Assembly: GCA_021845865.1 (NCBI GenBank)
Contig: JAJZVC010000006.1
Location: 19,855-83,854 of the forward strand
Reading direction: 5' to 3'
Origin: Pseudomonadota bacterium
GTDB lineage: Bacteria > Pseudomonadota > Gammaproteobacteria > Burkholderiales > UBA9220
Length of the DNA stretch: 64,000 nt
Numbering within the stretch: the first letter of the stretch is position 1; each line of letters starts with the position of its first letter. Shown here one piece after another: positions 439 through 16,110 of the stretch. The position numbers were made by a program, and so were the translations under genes. A model generated the notes under the pieces. It had not been told where the DNA came from, ran no database searches, and was given only the letters and a program-made list of their open reading frames with translations.

Positions 439-461
439 CACAGAAACGGGGGCTTTTCGGG
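439..461. repeat. 23-bp direct repeat (copy 1)
   Basis: CACAGAAACGGGGGCTTTTCGGG identical to 2533-2555. Confidence 0.8.
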
Positions 462-2555: not shown

Positions 2556-2801
2556 GACATATCCACGCCCCTTGCCCGGACCGATGCGCCTTAGCGCTAT
2601 CAAGAGTCCGGGTGAAGTTGTCCACGGCCGCTTGCGGCGGTGGGCAACTTCAGGGGGTGGGTATGTGACCGGTATATCCTTGTTCGAATACTTGCAAGCT
2701 AGATTGCCTTTTGGATTCCGATATCGATTTCGGATGTAACAAACCGCAGAAGGATTACCTCAATTGCGATACATACGTCCTCTGTCGTGCGGACTGGCTG
2801 G

Positions 2802-3384
2802 GCTTTGCGCAAGCAAAGCGCGCAGCGACCAGAGGGAGCGGAGGGGAACCGACGTAGTCGGGGCAAGGCCGTCCAGGCCGCAGCCCCCTCGAACAAGCCG
2901 CCCCAGCGGCGCCGGTCGAGGGTTGGGGGAGCCGCCGCCGTGCGAGGGCGCGAACGCGCCCGAGAGCGAGCCCAAGCGAGCGGTAGGCGGTGGGGGCGAA
3001 GCCCCCGCCCCCCAGCGATAGCGCCGGGGCACCCGCTTTACGTGGTCGGCGCGTCCAGCGACGAGGTGCGAAGCACCCAAGCCGAGGTTCGCAGAGCGAA
3101 CCTCCGGTGCAGCCCGCAAAGCGGGTGCCCCGGCGCGTAGCGATGGGGGGCGGCCCGAGGAGGCGAAGCCGACGCTGGAGCGAAGCGTAAGGCAACGGAA
3201 GGCTGGCAGGAGCGGCGTCCAGCCGCTCCAGTGTTGGGTCTGCGCCCCCTAGGGCGCCGAGCGCAGCGAGCCCAACACGGTGCCTGACTGAAGGCGCAGG
3301 GAGCATAGCGACCGAAGTAATCCGGCCCCCCTCTTCCGTCCACTAGGATAGGGCCGGATACCCCGAAGGATGAAGGGGCCGGAT
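2802..3384. other. GC-rich multi-hairpin non-coding island (candidate oriT/origin or structured ncRNA)
   Basis: Many perfect inverted repeats: 2802-2819 GCTTTGC-gcaa-GCAAAGC; 2946-2961 GGGCGCG-aa-CGCGCCC; 2992-3006 GGGGGC-gaa-GCCCCC; 3021-3039/3118-3136 19-bp perfect arms; 3065-3077 GGTGC-gaa-GCACC; 3084-3104 GAGGTTCGC-aga-GCGAACCTC; 3209-3229; 3231-3238/3271-3278; 3320-3329/3375-3384 ATCCGGCCCC/GGGGCCGGAT followed by TTTTTAT. Confidence 0.7.
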
Positions 3385-3442
3385 TTTTATAACTTCGTGT
3401 AATGGCAACTCCTCATGAATCGACCGCAAAAGGAGTTGTGCT

Positions 3443-4240
3443 ATGGATATGGAAACGAGAAATGGGATAAAAGACTATGCCGGAACGGCGCGAAAAATCG
3501 GTCAAGAAAAAATAATCAGGACATTGACCTGGGTATATAGATGGGGATGGTCCAGTCGAGAAATAATTGCCCGGGTAGCCGGCGACGAATTGCGGTATGC
3601 CGCAAGGTTGGTGAAAAAAGGGCTGTTGCGTAAGGTCAATCATCCTACCAGTCGAATGTTGCCCAGCGCCTATGTACTGACAGACGCCGGTCTCATGGTG
3701 GCCATCGATAACATGGCGGGCCTGCTGGAGTCACACAACTTGCAGATTGACTACCCCTGGGTTGCCAACCGCAGCAGACTCGCGTGGACCTATTTTGAGC
3801 ACGGCTTAGCTGTACAGAAGGCGATGATCTCCCTGGGTTGCCATAGCGATACAGCAGGCCATTGGTGGGCACCCGAACGAGAAATGCGTGGAGCAAATCA
3901 TCGAGGAGCCCTACCGGATGGGATGGTGATGACGGCGAGAGCGGATGATAACCAAATAACCTGGATCGAAATCGAACGCAGCTTCAAGAACGAGGAGCAG
4001 CGTGCATTGCAGCTATGGGATCGCCTCCAAGCCCTCAAGGCCGGGCGATTCCATAAGATTAGGTGGGTTTGTGCTACCAATGGACTCGCTCTCGCGCTGG
4101 AACGAGCGTTAGGTAAACCGTTCATTCCCAAAACATGGCGAGACGAACTTAGCAGGATTTGGCGTGAGCCCAGTCTCGGAAAAGCGCTTGAGCCACTCCG
4201 CCGAGCATCGAGCATTTCTCTCCTCGGGGAGATGGAATAG
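3443..4240 (+). CDS. winged-helix replication-relaxation/MobC-like mobilization protein
   Basis: 265 aa; N-terminal wHTH (KIIRTLTWVYRWGWSSREIIARVAGDELRYAARLVKKGLLRKV...AYVLTDAGL) and C-terminal WIEIERSFKN..Q nuclease-like segment typical of replication-relaxation family proteins. Confidence 0.5.
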   Translation: MDMETRNGIKDYAGTARKIGQEKIIRTLTWVYRWGWSSREIIARVAGDELRYAARLVKKGLLRKVNHPTSRMLPSAYVLTDAGLMVAIDNMAGLLESHNLQIDYPWVANRSRLAWTYFEHGLAVQKAMISLGCHSDTAGHWWAPEREMRGANHRGALPDGMVMTARADDNQITWIEIERSFKNEEQRALQLWDRLQALKAGRFHKIRWVCATNGLALALERALGKPFIPKTWRDELSRIWREPSLGKALEPLRRASSISLLGEME

Positions 4241-6355: not shown

Positions 6356-9136
6356 TTACTTTTTATTCGGATCACCCCATATATTGCCAGACGGCCCTCC
6401 CATCTGAACAATATCCCCTCTCACCTTTGATTTCGTAGCTGCCGCACCTTTTTGCTGTTCCGTGACTTGTGCTTCGGAGTGGTTCCCTACGTCAATTATG
6501 CCCTGCATATGGGCCACTTGAACCGAAGGATCATTGTGGCCCACGGGGATATTTTTCATTCCACCATCCACAACCCCAGACACACCAGCCGCTTGGCGCG
6601 CCCCCTGCTGACCTGCCAGGGCCATCTGCTCAGTGTTGGCGGCCGGGCCCTCAACCTGCATGTTGGGCGCTGTCGGGTTGACGGATGCGATCCCCTTGGG
6701 AGATTCGGCTGCCATACCATCGAACGCCTGAGTATAGGGTAGCGCAGCGCCGGCCATGCCTTGATCGGACGCCATGCGGAGAGCGTGAAACGCGACGGCT
6801 GCCCGGCGTTCCTCGCCGGCCGGCAGCGTCGAAAGGTACTTCGTCGTATCGACATAACGGGATGCCTGGGCCAGCAAGCTGTTCGCCGCATCGCTGCCGA
6901 CCCCCCGGCTGAAAGCCGCCCAGTCGTTCAGAACGGCATTCCGTACCCCGTGCCGGTTCTCCGCAATCGCCTGGGCTTGCTGCTGGGAAGTCAGCACGTT
7001 CTGACTGGACATACCCGATGAGAAAGACTCCAACCGTTGCTTGGTCTCCTGGGCGCTATGCAAGCGGGAGAGCGCCTTGTTGAAGGACTCGGAATCCGTA
7101 GTTGAAAGTGTTTTGGAAAGAGTATTCCGGAACGTATCCGAAGTAGATCCACGGGTCGCCACCTGGAGCTGGACAGCCTTCGCGTCCTCGGTGGCCCGCT
7201 TGTCGGACTTCAGTTCTTCATAGGCCGCCGTGACTTGAGAAGACTGCTCAGCGGACTTGCCAATTTTCCCGCCAATCAACTGCCCTACAAACGGCAAGTT
7301 CAAGCCGATCCCTGCGGAAGCAGACTCTACAAACGCCTCCTTATCCGAGCCCTGAAGCCCATGCTTCTCCGCGACGTCAGAGGCTCGGGCTCGTAGGGAC
7401 CGGTAAGAGTCTGTGTTCGTCACCCCGGATTCCTTGAGGATTCCCTGGGCATGTTCCATCGTAAGCCCATGGGCTGACGCATTCTGCATCGTCCGCCCGA
7501 ACTGCTGAACCACTTGGTTGCTGGTCGCGTCCACCTCTGCCTGGGCCCCGGAGAGCGCTATCTGGCGGGCACTTCCCGCAGAAATAGCAGCCCCTTCATT
7601 CCGGGTCATGTCCCCCACCACCCCGCCAGGAATACCGGAATACTGGGACGACCCGGCGACCATGGCCGGCGGCGCGTACACATCCGGTGCTCCCTGTTTC
7701 TCGTTGACATAATCCCGGCCGCTCCAGCGTTGGGCCATCGCCGTAAGGCCGAAGATGGAGCCGGAAAGGAGCGCAAAGGAGATCAGGGGCACCGCTCCCA
7801 GCATGTCACTGGCCACCGCCAGCTTGAGGGAAAGCATGTCGTAGAACTCGCTGCTGACCGCAATGGAAAGGCCGTTGGGTGAAGCGGCCATCATTCTGTT
7901 TATCTCGTCCCCCACCATCACCTGGATCATGAAGTTGACCACGGCCGCGAAGGGCAGCCAGGTCTGGCTCCATACCCCGAAAAGCAGATAGGCGATCAAT
8001 ATCCTGATGCCATGCCAAGACGCCATCACCGCGAAGATGAACACCAGGGGCGCAAAAGCGTAGAACATGGCCAGAAGGATGTTCATGCCCGGGATCATGG
8101 TTTTCGTGAAGAATCCGGCATTGGCCGTCGCGTCGGTCTTCCACTGCTCTGCCGCCTGGGTCAGCATCGTAGTGCACTGGTTCAGGGAGGCGTAGTCCGA
8201 AGCTGACGAGGCGCAGTTGTAGGCCCTCGCCACCTCTGGCGCCAGCAGCGCATTCTTCATGAAGGCATTGGCGTCCTGGGCTCCACCCCATACCGGCTGG
8301 ACAAGGTTGGCATAAACCGTATCCATGTCGGCCCGGGTATAGACATTGGGCGTCGCCGCATTCGGGGTCGCCCGGGTTGGCATGTTCCGGTTCAGAAGCT
8401 TCTGGAAGTCGGGGCTGTTGAGAAAGTTGTCCGCGTCGGCGGCGATCCGGGTGGCGGAGTCCGCACAAGACATCCCGGAGCCCTGCGGAAACGCGGCGGA
8501 GAAGTAGGTAGTCAGCCCATCGTGGTAATTCGTGGTGAGGTAGCCGATGGCATCCTGGGAAATGGCGAATGCCTTGGGATCGAACGAAGCCGCATTAACG
8601 GCGCAATCCAGGGTGAACTCCTTGATGTTCGCCGTCAGGTAGGGATCGTAATCCCCCACGCCCTGGCGCAAAGCCAGCAACAGGCGCAAGGGATTGGTGA
8701 ACCCCTGGGAGGTCATGGTGATGTAGTTGCCATCGGTCGTGCTGAACGCCGTCTCGATGTCGCTGGATATCGAGTGGGTGATCGAGCTGATGATGGACGC
8801 CGGCACCGCCACGCCAAGAGGCAGGTTGTCCACGGTGGTCGCGTTCCCGGTATAAAGATCCTCCACCTGGACCGAAACCTTGGGCACGGCCATCACATAA
8901 AAGATGGCCAGCAGAACCAGGGCCACGGCAGGGTTGAAGTTCTTCCCGATCCCGAACCGCGACAGCACCCCGGCGCCGATGGACAGGAACAGGGTAACGA
9001 GGAGCCCCGTGAGCACGGCGCTTCCTGCCCCGATACCGGAACCGGAGGAAAGGAGCCCTGAACCGAACACCATGGCCACGGCGTTCAGCACCTGGCGGAA
9101 CATATTCACATCGCCGAGGGTATAGATCGTGAACAT
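6356..9136 (-). CDS. traG: conjugal transfer protein TraG (N-terminal membrane-domain type)
   Basis: 926 aa polytopic N-terminus with long hydrophilic C-terminal tail; adjacent to traH- and traN-like genes. Confidence 0.75.
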   Translation of the reverse strand: MFTIYTLGDVNMFRQVLNAVAMVFGSGLLSSGSGIGAGSAVLTGLLVTLFLSIGAGVLSRFGIGKNFNPAVALVLLAIFYVMAVPKVSVQVEDLYTGNATTVDNLPLGVAVPASIISSITHSISSDIETAFSTTDGNYITMTSQGFTNPLRLLLALRQGVGDYDPYLTANIKEFTLDCAVNAASFDPKAFAISQDAIGYLTTNYHDGLTTYFSAAFPQGSGMSCADSATRIAADADNFLNSPDFQKLLNRNMPTRATPNAATPNVYTRADMDTVYANLVQPVWGGAQDANAFMKNALLAPEVARAYNCASSASDYASLNQCTTMLTQAAEQWKTDATANAGFFTKTMIPGMNILLAMFYAFAPLVFIFAVMASWHGIRILIAYLLFGVWSQTWLPFAAVVNFMIQVMVGDEINRMMAASPNGLSIAVSSEFYDMLSLKLAVASDMLGAVPLISFALLSGSIFGLTAMAQRWSGRDYVNEKQGAPDVYAPPAMVAGSSQYSGIPGGVVGDMTRNEGAAISAGSARQIALSGAQAEVDATSNQVVQQFGRTMQNASAHGLTMEHAQGILKESGVTNTDSYRSLRARASDVAEKHGLQGSDKEAFVESASAGIGLNLPFVGQLIGGKIGKSAEQSSQVTAAYEELKSDKRATEDAKAVQLQVATRGSTSDTFRNTLSKTLSTTDSESFNKALSRLHSAQETKQRLESFSSGMSSQNVLTSQQQAQAIAENRHGVRNAVLNDWAAFSRGVGSDAANSLLAQASRYVDTTKYLSTLPAGEERRAAVAFHALRMASDQGMAGAALPYTQAFDGMAAESPKGIASVNPTAPNMQVEGPAANTEQMALAGQQGARQAAGVSGVVDGGMKNIPVGHNDPSVQVAHMQGIIDVGNHSEAQVTEQQKGAAATKSKVRGDIVQMGGPSGNIWGDPNKK

Positions 9137-10557
9137 CAGCGCTTAGCCACCTGGGCGAAGACAGCGGGGTTGGAGGAGATCACGGCCGCCACGTACTGCT
9201 TCGCCTTCAGTACGCGGTCGGTCTGACTGGCAACGATCTCCTGCTGTTTGACCCACTCGGAGAACAGTTCCTGCTCCCGTCTGGCAATATCGTCCGGCTT
9301 CGTGACACCTGACGCCCCGGAGAACGCCTGGCGTGCTGCCTTCAAGGCTGCCTCGCCGTACCGGGCCGCCAGCTCGTCGGCGATGACCGGGGCCAGTTGC
9401 TGGGCCACTACCACCATGGCGCCGGGGCTGGCCTGGACATCGCGCAACATCTTGAGCACTGGGGCGGACACGGCGTTGATGAACGCCTTGTGTTGGGCCG
9501 TGAAGCCGCAGTCCGTGGTATTGCAGGTGGACAGCAGTCCCAGGATCGAACTGGGCTGCACACCGTCGTTCTCGTTGGCTCCCCCGAAGAGCATCCGGTT
9601 GGTGTACCCCAGCGTCCCCTCGAAGGACAGATCGGCCAGCATTGGATTCAAACAACCCTCTCTCTCCGTCGTATCGCAACGGAGGTACTTGAGCGGCTTC
9701 TTGCTGGACCCGTCACGAAGGTCGCTCAAGGACAGCGCATAGCTGATGGGCTTGCCGGTCTGTGGCTTGGGGCTGCCATCCGGGTTCGTTTCATCGGGTT
9801 GCTGACCGGGCATCACGATGGTCCCCAGGAGGCTCATGACAATCTGGTTGGCCATGTCCGGGTTGGACTCGCCGGCCGCCGGGTTCCCCAGGTACTGGCC
9901 GGCGTTGGTATCGGACAACGCCTTCCAGACCAGATTGCCGCAGGTGGCACAGCTTTCGGAGTTACGCTTGGAACTGGCATTCGGGCTGGAGAACAGGTCG
10001 TTGATGGAGGAAAACAAGTCCGAGAAGAAGCCCTTGCCGGAGTCCTCCTTGGTAGCCTTCTCGTCGGATGCGTTCTTCCTGGCGTCTGGATCATCGAAAC
10101 CCTTGACGATCTGGTTGGCGATGGCGCAGGTATTCTTGAACATGCTGTTGAGCGCCTGGAGCTTGGACTGAAACTCGGTCATCAACTGAGCGAGCTGCGG
10201 GTTGATGCTCTTGATGGCGAGATGGAAGAGCGCCCCGATGGAGTTGGCGGCGATCTGCCGGAACAGGGCGGTGAGCTGTTCCGAATTGATGAAGGTAAAC
10301 GACCCTCCATAGAGGTCGATGCCCCCACAGCCGGCGGAAAATCGCGGCGGGTCGAAGGCTACCAGGTTGATGTTGCGGATGGGAGTGCGGAGCGCGGCGC
10401 CGCCGCCCACGAAGCCACCACGGGTTTGGCTGCTGTATGCCTGGGCGGAAGTCACGTTGGTCATGAACATCCCGTCCAGGGCATCCTGGAGGCCGGCGTT
10501 GGCCTGACCGGCGTTCAGCAGCAACGACAGCGATAGCACGAGAACGACGGGTTTCAT
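9136..10557 (-). CDS. traH: conjugal transfer pilus assembly protein TraH
   Basis: 473 aa with signal peptide; GGGAALRTPIRNINLVAFDPPRFSAGCGGIDLYGGSFTFINSEQLTALFRQIAANSIGALFHLAIKSINPQ is a characteristic TraH segment. Confidence 0.9.
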   Translation of the reverse strand: MKPVVLVLSLSLLLNAGQANAGLQDALDGMFMTNVTSAQAYSSQTRGGFVGGGAALRTPIRNINLVAFDPPRFSAGCGGIDLYGGSFTFINSEQLTALFRQIAANSIGALFHLAIKSINPQLAQLMTEFQSKLQALNSMFKNTCAIANQIVKGFDDPDARKNASDEKATKEDSGKGFFSDLFSSINDLFSSPNASSKRNSESCATCGNLVWKALSDTNAGQYLGNPAAGESNPDMANQIVMSLLGTIVMPGQQPDETNPDGSPKPQTGKPISYALSLSDLRDGSSKKPLKYLRCDTTEREGCLNPMLADLSFEGTLGYTNRMLFGGANENDGVQPSSILGLLSTCNTTDCGFTAQHKAFINAVSAPVLKMLRDVQASPGAMVVVAQQLAPVIADELAARYGEAALKAARQAFSGASGVTKPDDIARREQELFSEWVKQQEIVASQTDRVLKAKQYVAAVISSNPAVFAQVAKR

Positions 10558-10970
10558 TGACCCCTCCCGATGGCTTGCCGAAATTGGGACAGGTCAATCG
10601 CCTCCATCGGGGCCGTCCCGTCCCGACAAAGGTTGATGCCATAGTCCACCGTGAAATCCGCCCTTCCCCCTTCCTTAGTCAGCGCATTCGGCTGGACCAG
10701 GCGCACGTTGAGGCGCTTGCAGCCTTCCTGCTTGTACGCCTTGAGAGTGGTTACCTCGACCCGTACCGGGTCGCGGGACTGGGTGGTTTGGTGCATCTTC
10801 TCCGCGATGGGGCCCGTCAGGACACCCTTGGCAGTACCGCCCGGGGCGTCGATGGCCTGCATGAGCAGCGGCTTGACCGTGGTGTACTCGGCGGCCAAGG
10901 CATCCACGCTCAAAAGCAGGGACGCGGACAGACAGATAATCAAGAGTTGGCGTATTTTCATATTCCCCAC
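10554..10970 (-). CDS. periplasmic conjugation-associated hypothetical protein
   Basis: 138 aa with signal peptide; overlaps traH start (ATGA), located between TraH and TraN genes. Confidence 0.6.
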   Translation of the reverse strand: MGNMKIRQLLIICLSASLLLSVDALAAEYTTVKPLLMQAIDAPGGTAKGVLTGPIAEKMHQTTQSRDPVRVEVTTLKAYKQEGCKRLNVRLVQPNALTKEGGRADFTVDYGINLCRDGTAPMEAIDLSQFRQAIGRGQ

Positions 10971-10976
10971 CGTTTC

Positions 10977-12218
10977 TCACTGACGATAGAACTGCTGGAC
11001 TTGGTTCTGGATGACCTGCTGGGTTTTGCCGGCGAGCGCACTGGCATCCGGCACGTGGACGTTGGCCATGATCTCGCCGTAAAACTCGCTCAGGTCCATC
11101 TGGTTGAAGTTGAGGTTCGCAAATTGGGGCTGGGTAAACCCCGAGCAGTCCGGCGACTCCGCGCCGCCCCAACTCTTGCCAACTTGGGGCCGCCCTTGCT
11201 CATTGATGATGCGGGCCAGGCGCGAGTTGAAGCAGCAGTAGCTCTCCGTGGTTTCCAGGCAGATTCCCAGGATGGGGATTTCCAGGGAGCAATAGCTCCC
11301 GACGAAGTGGCATAGGTTCTGCCCTCGCTTGAGGCCAAGAACCTGCTCGTCCTCCTCGCAAGCAAGCAGCTCCTGCAAGACCATCATGCCGACGGAAATA
11401 GCGAAGCTCGTGGGGTCAAAAGCAAAGCCAATCGAGCCCCCCGCGCCGAAATTCACGGTGATGCCGTAGAAACTGACTCCAGGGTTGAACCCCGCACCAG
11501 TCCCGTATAGAGAGCTGTAGAGGTTCAGCATGGAGTTGGGGGCATCGCTCATGAACAGGGCGTCATAAACGTAGGTGGAGCCCATGAGATTGCTAGCGTT
11601 ATTACCAAGCGTGGACAACAACGCCGAATTGCTTATCCCCGCCCCGCCGCCGGATGTTTCGCAGCAATTCTTCAACCCGAAAAATCCCTTCGTGCATGAA
11701 CCGTTGAAACCGCCGAAGAGCGTGAGGGAATTGGGGTCCATGTATGTCCCCGCCTCCCGTGCGGCCTCCATACCGGCGACGGCTTTGACGAAATCGGAAT
11801 CCGGCGCATATCCCGTGTCGTAGCATTTGCCATCCTGGCAAAACGTCTGGACCGAACAATCATTGACGGTGGTGGTCTGGGGCGGTGTCGCTTGGCATTG
11901 GTAGGTCTGCTCGTACATCGTGCAAAGCCCCTGGGGATTGGTCTTGATGCACTTGGATCCGATCTGCCCGCAGCCCTTGTCCCGTAGAGCTTGGCAATCA
12001 TCCACCTGCTGGGGGCTGACGCAGTTGTAGCTGTTTTCGTAGTGCCAGCAGGTCTCACCGATGTCCGCCAGGCACACCTGAACCCCGGAGATCGTCTTGC
12101 AGGGTGTAGCGTCCAGGCAGGCGGAGCCCACCTTGACGCAATCGCCGGCAAACACGGGAAGCGCGGTGATGAGGGCTATGGTCAGGATCAGCGAAGCTGG
12201 ACGCATTGGACATCCCAT
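10977..12218 (-). CDS. traN: TraN-like mating-pair stabilization protein
   Basis: 413 aa, signal peptide, very Cys-rich (CVKVGSACLDATPCKTISGVQVC..CWHYENSYNCVSPQQVDDC...), traH neighbour. Confidence 0.75.
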   Translation of the reverse strand: MGCPMRPASLILTIALITALPVFAGDCVKVGSACLDATPCKTISGVQVCLADIGETCWHYENSYNCVSPQQVDDCQALRDKGCGQIGSKCIKTNPQGLCTMYEQTYQCQATPPQTTTVNDCSVQTFCQDGKCYDTGYAPDSDFVKAVAGMEAAREAGTYMDPNSLTLFGGFNGSCTKGFFGLKNCCETSGGGAGISNSALLSTLGNNASNLMGSTYVYDALFMSDAPNSMLNLYSSLYGTGAGFNPGVSFYGITVNFGAGGSIGFAFDPTSFAISVGMMVLQELLACEEDEQVLGLKRGQNLCHFVGSYCSLEIPILGICLETTESYCCFNSRLARIINEQGRPQVGKSWGGAESPDCSGFTQPQFANLNFNQMDLSEFYGEIMANVHVPDASALAGKTQQVIQNQVQQFYRQ

Positions 12219-16022: not shown

Positions 16023-16035
16023 ATTCGGGTTTTAC

Positions 16036-16110
16036 TGGTGGGTGGTACAGGGATTGAACCTGTGACCCCTGCCGTGTGAAGGCAGTGCTCTACCGCTGAG
16101 CTAACCACCC
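16036..16110 (-). tRNA. tRNA-Val (anticodon CAC), 3' CCA encoded
   Basis: Reverse complement GGGTGGTTAGCTCAGCGGTAGAGCACTGCCTTCACACGGCAGGGGTCACAGGTTCAATCCCTGTACCACCCACCA folds as cloverleaf; anticodon loop TTCACAC. Confidence 0.95.

Follow-up and report, generated by a model that had tools for sequence, protein, structure and literature searches.

A covarying multi-hairpin island upstream of MobC-type relaxase genes as a putative large structured RNA of mobile elements

The integrative element SGI1, which has three genes of a T4SS, cannot be mobilized without a self-encoded RNA, sgm-sRNA, whose gene lies beside that of an atypical relaxase (PMC9299015). For this single element, the authors of that study raised a role of RNA in conjugal transfer while being unaware of any earlier sRNA reported from a conjugation complex, and proposed that sgm-sRNA acts in relaxase assembly or in engagement of the transfer channel (PMC9299015). 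A different class of relaxases, the MOB_C family, corresponds to PF13814 (PMC5357655) and is related to the PD-(D/E)XK restriction endonucleases (PMC12857230).

The window analysed here, a 64,000-nucleotide stretch of bacterial DNA, contains one end of a 21.3-kb integrated element that runs from C59:14643 to window position 16083 and is bounded by a 49-bp direct repeat (98%) of a tRNA-Val end. One end of it carries a tyrosine integrase gene; its further content comprises ABC-3C-type genes, the structured element described below, mobC, and homologs of TraG, TraH and TraN. As the latter three occur while neither VirB4 nor a coupling protein was seen among the element genes scanned, with no sign of a full T4SS, the element reads as an integrative mobilizable element whose plan looks like that of SGI1. 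A 23-bp direct repeat, CACAGAAACGGGGGCTTTTCGGG, was also observed at window positions 439-461 and 2533-2555, flanking the gene at 960-2453.

3443-4240, + strand: mobC-like gene of the Replic_Relax/MOB_C relaxase family, with winged helix and PD-(D/E)XK-like D...E-x-E
6356-12218, - strand: TraG, TraH and TraN homologs (Pfam and NCBIfam)
16035-16083, no strand: attR, the 49-bp repeat (98%) of C59:14643-14691 (L006), at the end of tRNA-Val 16036-16110

Upstream of the mobC-like gene, the initial annotation had described a multi-hairpin island, read either as a structured ncRNA of ~0.6 kb or as a single-strand-acting DNA locus such as an oriT. Folding of positions 2780-3390 gave -345 kcal/mol for the + strand (z -6.7 against 20 dinucleotide shuffles) and -331 kcal/mol for the - strand (z -5.5 against dinucleotide shuffles). 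The island is genuine and well beyond chance. The conserved structured element extends on the + strand from ~2829, an approximate 5' limit, to ~3318, and comprises the following parts, listed together with a possible terminator further downstream.

2861-2886, + strand: helix B, GGGC-AA-[GGCC-GUCCA-GGCC]-GCA-GCCC, with the first GUNCA loop; covariation of its inner as well as its outer helix seen in 13-14 sequences
2886-2922, + strand: hairpin C, inner GCCGC-CCCA-GCGGC with a CCHA-type loop, from the MFE fold and loop census
2925-2990, + strand: conserved GGGGGAGCC followed by arm D, with a CCGCC/GGCGG outer helix, which covaries in 15 sequences, and an inner hairpin at 2946-2961
2992-3006, + strand: hairpin E, GGGGGC-GAA-GCCCCC, from sequences and fold; its stem letters vary among homologs
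3021-3042/3115-3136, + strand: central helix F, containing the 19-bp repeat of the initial annotation; covariation in 18 sequences
3021-3136, + strand: multiloop inside helix F, with a GUCCA hairpin at 3051-3059 and hairpins at 3065-3077 and 3084-3104
3005-3013/3145-3153 (span 3005-3153), + strand: outer extension of helix F, CCGCCCCCC/GGGGGGCGG, from sequence and fold
3154-3195, + strand: conserved junction CCCGAG-[hairpin H]-CGCUGGAG-[hairpin I]-CGUAAGGCAA, with invariant alignment columns; both hairpins covary
3209-3229, + strand: hairpin J, GGAGCGGC-GUCCA-GCCGCUCC, with a GUNCA loop; 97% paired, with two-sided changes at 7/8 pairs (18 sequences)
3231-3278, + strand: stem K (3231-3238/3271-3278) with hairpin L (3242-3257, CCUA loop); 12/12 modelled pairs changed on both sides, ~96.5% paired
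3280-3297, + strand: 3' helix GUGCCU/AGGCGC, from the fold, with like pairing seen by eye in several homologs and no formal count
3319-3390, + strand: possible terminator, an 11-bp stem with a 45-nt loop and a T run; absent from the terminator scan and not conserved

The 19-bp arms first reported at 3021-3039/3118-3136 are perfect and lengthen to 22 bp with one A-C mismatch, and the arms outside them (3005-3013/3145-3153) as well as the hairpins at 3065-3077, 3084-3104, 2946-2961, 2992-3006 and 3209-3229 were all located in the sequence. The stem assigned to 3231-3278 is present as well, with the arms 3231-3238/3271-3278. The 11-bp pair 3319-3329/3375-3385 of the suggested terminator is present, but it lies outside the conserved fold, encloses the long 45-nt loop and was missed by a standard terminator scan. 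A match to a known Rfam family would have made the island an already described one; in Rfam 15, however, no family reached the gathering score for the island and nothing relevant appeared even at E <= 10, and for the window and its homologs the only hits above the gathering cut-off were tRNA and an unrelated sroH elsewhere.

A blastn search with the island among relatives returned one match of 69% identity (L005), which is also located just upstream of a Replic_Relax-like ORF. Further loci were obtained by searches with the L005 copy and with the downstream protein, which gave GC-rich islands with common motifs before the gene, and the set was completed by a DNA pattern scan of GTDB species genomes, by the covariance model R1 (built on the 3' domain) and from plasmid records. 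Including the window, 20 distinct, diverged homologous loci with one common architecture were assembled, mostly from Burkholderiales: the window, L005 (= L075), L051, L052, L053, L054, L055, L057, L068, L070, L071, L078, L082 (= L107), L095, L096, L097, L098, L109, L112 and L114, of which L055 and L057, accepted on motifs and fold only, are the least certain. In the order (Burkholderiales, judged from named relatives), 10 of 400 genomes scored E < 1e-3 with model R1, one of these (G036) being a false positive whose match on C71 is a GGDEF-like coding region. The corresponding scan of the class (339 genomes) and phylum (249), which had modest sensitivity and overlapping genome draws, gave nothing at E < 1e-3 apart from the window's own genome. 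Several matches of the DNA pattern, for example L065, L067, L072 and L077, turned out on reading to be coding-region false positives. No match was obtained with island blastn against plasmids and phages, with the DNA pattern against viral contigs, or with the window's MobC as protein query against genome and viral contigs, the latter query probably being too divergent. A full homolog is present on the complete Thiothrix unzii plasmid pTunz3 (Thiotrichales), and Sulfuriferula nivalis SGTM_pl1 is likewise a complete-plasmid carrier. Three genomes contain two diverged copies, each beside a mobC-type gene: Hydromonas duriensis (L071/L109), MAG DBS2-1.bin99 (L078/L112) and MAG Modern_marine_glass_biofilm.mb.74 (L051/L052). 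At L051, the mobC-type gene is truncated beside a transposase-like ORF.

Comparison of these homologs makes a far stronger case than the fold of a single copy. Across 18 model-aligned sequences of the 3' domain, two-sided changes occur at 28 of 29 pairs, with a covariation score of 0.854 against at most 0.120 for slid and 0.188 for shuffled controls; this alignment leans to the model, although eight of its sequences were absent from model building. An independent MAFFT alignment of 10 sequences gave 26 of 29 pairs changed on both sides and a score of 0.666 (controls <=0.125 slid, <=0.185 shuffled). Four further helices with hand-aligned arms, namely the inner and outer helices of B as well as D and F, covary too. 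Over 18 sequences, helix F is 99.4% paired and all of its 10 compared pairs vary in both partners; the arms of B, D and F were picked by eye, and the percentage paired is biased upward accordingly. The stems thus covary, contrary to the outcome named in the initial annotation as refuting its proposal, and the alignments indicate that the fold is kept by compensatory mutation across diverged copies.

The fold is also strand-specific. The + strand gives the better fold in 17 of 17 sequences tested, and in each the margin over the - strand exceeds the average margin of its shuffles; folding of 2780-3320 as ssDNA gave z -8.1 (+) versus -5.4 (-). When the + strands were folded without G-U pairs, single G-T mismatches outnumbered A-C mismatches by 29 to 4 and the - strand mirrored this pattern, whereas shuffles gave 26:40 (p 1e-8); this Watson-Crick-only fold test replaced a mismatch count over all inverted repeats, which had been too noisy. 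The strand asymmetry of the mismatches excludes a symmetric dsDNA cruciform, and it favours RNA without proving it.

Two types dominate the apical loops. Among five-nt loops, 20 of 36 are C(GUNCA)G, and among four-nt loops 27 of 50 are C(CCHA)G, both of which are rare in flanking DNA, and these dominant loops resemble repeated recognition sites. An intramolecular contact between the GUNCA loops and the conserved CGCUGGAG was examined and discarded, as CGCUGGAG is unchanged in copies with GUACA or GUUCA loops. Multi-hairpin islands with GUNCA and CCHA loops were also seen on the Eleftheria terrae plasmid NZ_CP106950 (L115:10850-11800, - strand) and on Providencia rettgeri pYPR25-2 (L116:11330-11960, - strand), in both cases between divergent coupling-protein-type and mobC genes and on the strand opposite to mobC. 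They may represent a sister family reaching Enterobacterales, the resemblance being one of look and loop types only.

The main rival to an RNA is a single-stranded DNA element, in which case MobC systems would have an unusually elaborate oriT or T-strand structure; its + strand would fold when single-stranded in transfer, and either the relaxase or a priming system in the recipient would recognise it. The position of the island directly upstream of a relaxase-family gene and the + strand bias of its ssDNA fold are both consistent with this explanation, as is the tolerance of G-T, G-A and G-G mismatches (29, 26 and 25 on the + strand), since in DNA, too, these mismatches do the least harm. The GNA and GNNA-type loops observed are stable in DNA. 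Moreover, G-U makes up 5.6% of MFE pairs, compared with 9-12% for the RNase P and tmRNA of relatives, only 3/60 tetraloops are of the GNRA type versus 36/93 in RNase P, and one-sided changes are rare (10 cells versus 187 two-sided, summed over the 18-sequence alignment), the last point being unusual for RNA. Further points against an ncRNA are that no consensus promoter beyond chance was found in a promoter search and that terminators near the 3' end, inconsistent among homologs, are clear in only a few copies. On the other hand, roughly twelve helices, joined by conserved junction sequences, extend over 450 nt of the island, which to our knowledge exceeds any oriT; neither a repeat array nor a nic-like site turned up, and G-T is the mismatch most enriched relative to shuffles, as RNA wobble predicts. 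The oriT-like alternative of the initial annotation pointed in the right direction, and, should it be correct, the island would be the most elaborate transfer-origin fold known to us; we nevertheless consider it somewhat unlikely. Covariation, + strand folding bias, linkage to mobC, repeated loops and the SGI1 precedent, together with the SGI1-like content of the window element, argue for an ncRNA, and we regard it as probable that the island acts as RNA. Compensatory change, strand specificity and the link to a MobC relaxase-type gene therefore support, in part, the earlier proposal of a structured ncRNA of ~0.6 kb, the conserved part covering ~2829-3318.

The downstream ORF, first read as a winged-helix gene of the mobilization/replication-relaxation type, does match Replic_Relax: its product scores above the cut-off of PF13814 (E 2.7e-7). 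The best NCBIfam model is NF041423, 'MobC family replication-relaxation protein' (E 1.5e-12, far below the curated cut-off of that subfamily). Ten proteins with 17-24% identity to that of the window share H120, D159, E176, E178 and K182 without exception, and D159, E176, E178 and K182 would be the PD-(D/E)XK-like catalytic residues. The structure model of the window protein (pLDDT 74) gave PDB matches to MarR-type winged helices only. Relaxase activity would follow from family membership. NZ_AP021882, NZ_CP072792, NZ_CP106950 and NZ_CP060728 carry MobC, yet PLSDB/MOB-suite types them as non-mobilizable, with the gene listed as hypothetical, and mobile plasmids of the MobC type are therefore probably under-counted.

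A Replic_Relax/MobC-type gene lies directly downstream of the island on the same strand in 17 of the 20 loci, starting within ~730 nt, and the same arrangement was found at nine of the ten informative loci identified independently of mobC (L005, L068, L070, L071, L078, L097, L098, L109 and L112). The exception is L096, where mobC is 2.7 kb off and on the opposite strand; at L082 and L095 the contigs end too early for a downstream reading, a MobC-type gene being present 4.1 kb upstream at L095. The gene following mobC often encodes a short lipoprotein of no assigned family, with a membrane segment and a coiled-coil-like C-terminus (observed at L053:8624-9478, L057:9347-10102, L114:4903-5733, L055, L054, L078 and L005), and T4SS coupling-protein-type genes adjoin the island in some loci.

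The same-strand position directly upstream in 17/20 loci would also suit a 5' leader acting in cis on the translation or transcription of mobC and of the lipoprotein gene behind it. The gap between island and mobC, however, varies from ~30 to 730 nt, another ORF intervenes at L078, mobC is remote and inverted at L096, and the island is much larger than usual leaders; the look-alike islands of Eleftheria and Providencia, which may be homologs, also lie opposite to mobC. Given the variable gap and these opposite orientations, a simple 5' leader of the mobC mRNA is unlikely, and the regulatory reading as a whole appears improbable to us. Alternatively, the RNA might serve the element in some other way, for example in replication or copy control, in stability or in defence, and merely travel beside mobC. 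Some carriers are complete plasmids (SGTM_pl1, pTunz3), two copies per genome occur in three cases and the window element encodes ABC-3C-type genes, but what constantly adjoins the island is MobC, in many loci with the lipoprotein gene behind it, and not a replication or toxin gene, so that we consider such a passenger very improbable.

According to the preferred reading, the island would be the gene for a highly structured, + strand ncRNA of ~450-530 nt, whose transcription we infer, and this RNA would be a conserved partner of MobC-type (restriction-endonuclease-like, MOB_C) relaxases on mobilizable and conjugative elements, mainly of Burkholderiales. The repeated loops may be bound by several copies of an element or host protein, possibly MobC itself, and the resulting RNA-protein complex could help the atypical relaxase to assemble on the origin of transfer or to engage the transfer channel. 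We give about an even chance that the islands represent a putative new family of large structured ncRNAs acting with MobC-type relaxases in DNA mobilization. That MobC-type relaxases in general are RNA-protein machines, with a dedicated large GUNCA/CCHA-loop RNA as an integral part of the transfer initiation complex, is a bolder extension that we hold to be doubtful. If true, a whole class of DNA mobilization systems would use RNA as a structural or targeting component, SGI1 being an independent instance, and a relaxase family with a conserved RNA partner would give RNA a part in conjugal DNA transfer that goes beyond ordinary gene regulation. The ~20 natural variants, including the complete plasmids of the cultured environmental species Sulfuriferula nivalis and Thiothrix unzii and the two-copy Hydromonas duriensis, make the RNA question directly testable.

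Among known RNAs, CsrB and CsrC are multi-hairpin, protein-binding RNAs with the apical motif GGA. The island resembles them in having many hairpins with one apical motif, which suggests that several copies of one protein are bound, but its loops are GUNCA and CCHA instead of GGA and are set in one conserved overall architecture. Neither the open-licence literature searched nor Rfam 15 yielded a description of the island family, and we know of no structured RNA for the CloDF13 MobC or pAD1 TraX systems. These MOB_C systems are nevertheless close to the locus through the neighbour gene, which belongs to the same PF13814/MobC family with the PD-(D/E)XK-like D...E-x-E motif (PMC12857230, PMC5357655). 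The large ornate RNAs GOLLD, ROOL, OLE and HEARO are similarly long, highly structured and covarying, and several are associated with mobile elements or phages (PMC12286853); the island differs from them in host range, neighbour gene and loop motifs, and in matching no Rfam family. Also close is sgm-sRNA of SGI1, compared here by its published description only, although the SGI1 relaxase MpsA is tyrosine-recombinase-like and not MobC, and its core of ~210-280 nt is processed from a longer transcript (PMC9299015). Like sgm-sRNA, the island of the window spans several hundred nucleotides and lies beside an atypical relaxase gene within an integrative mobilizable element that carries homologs of TraN, TraH and TraG.
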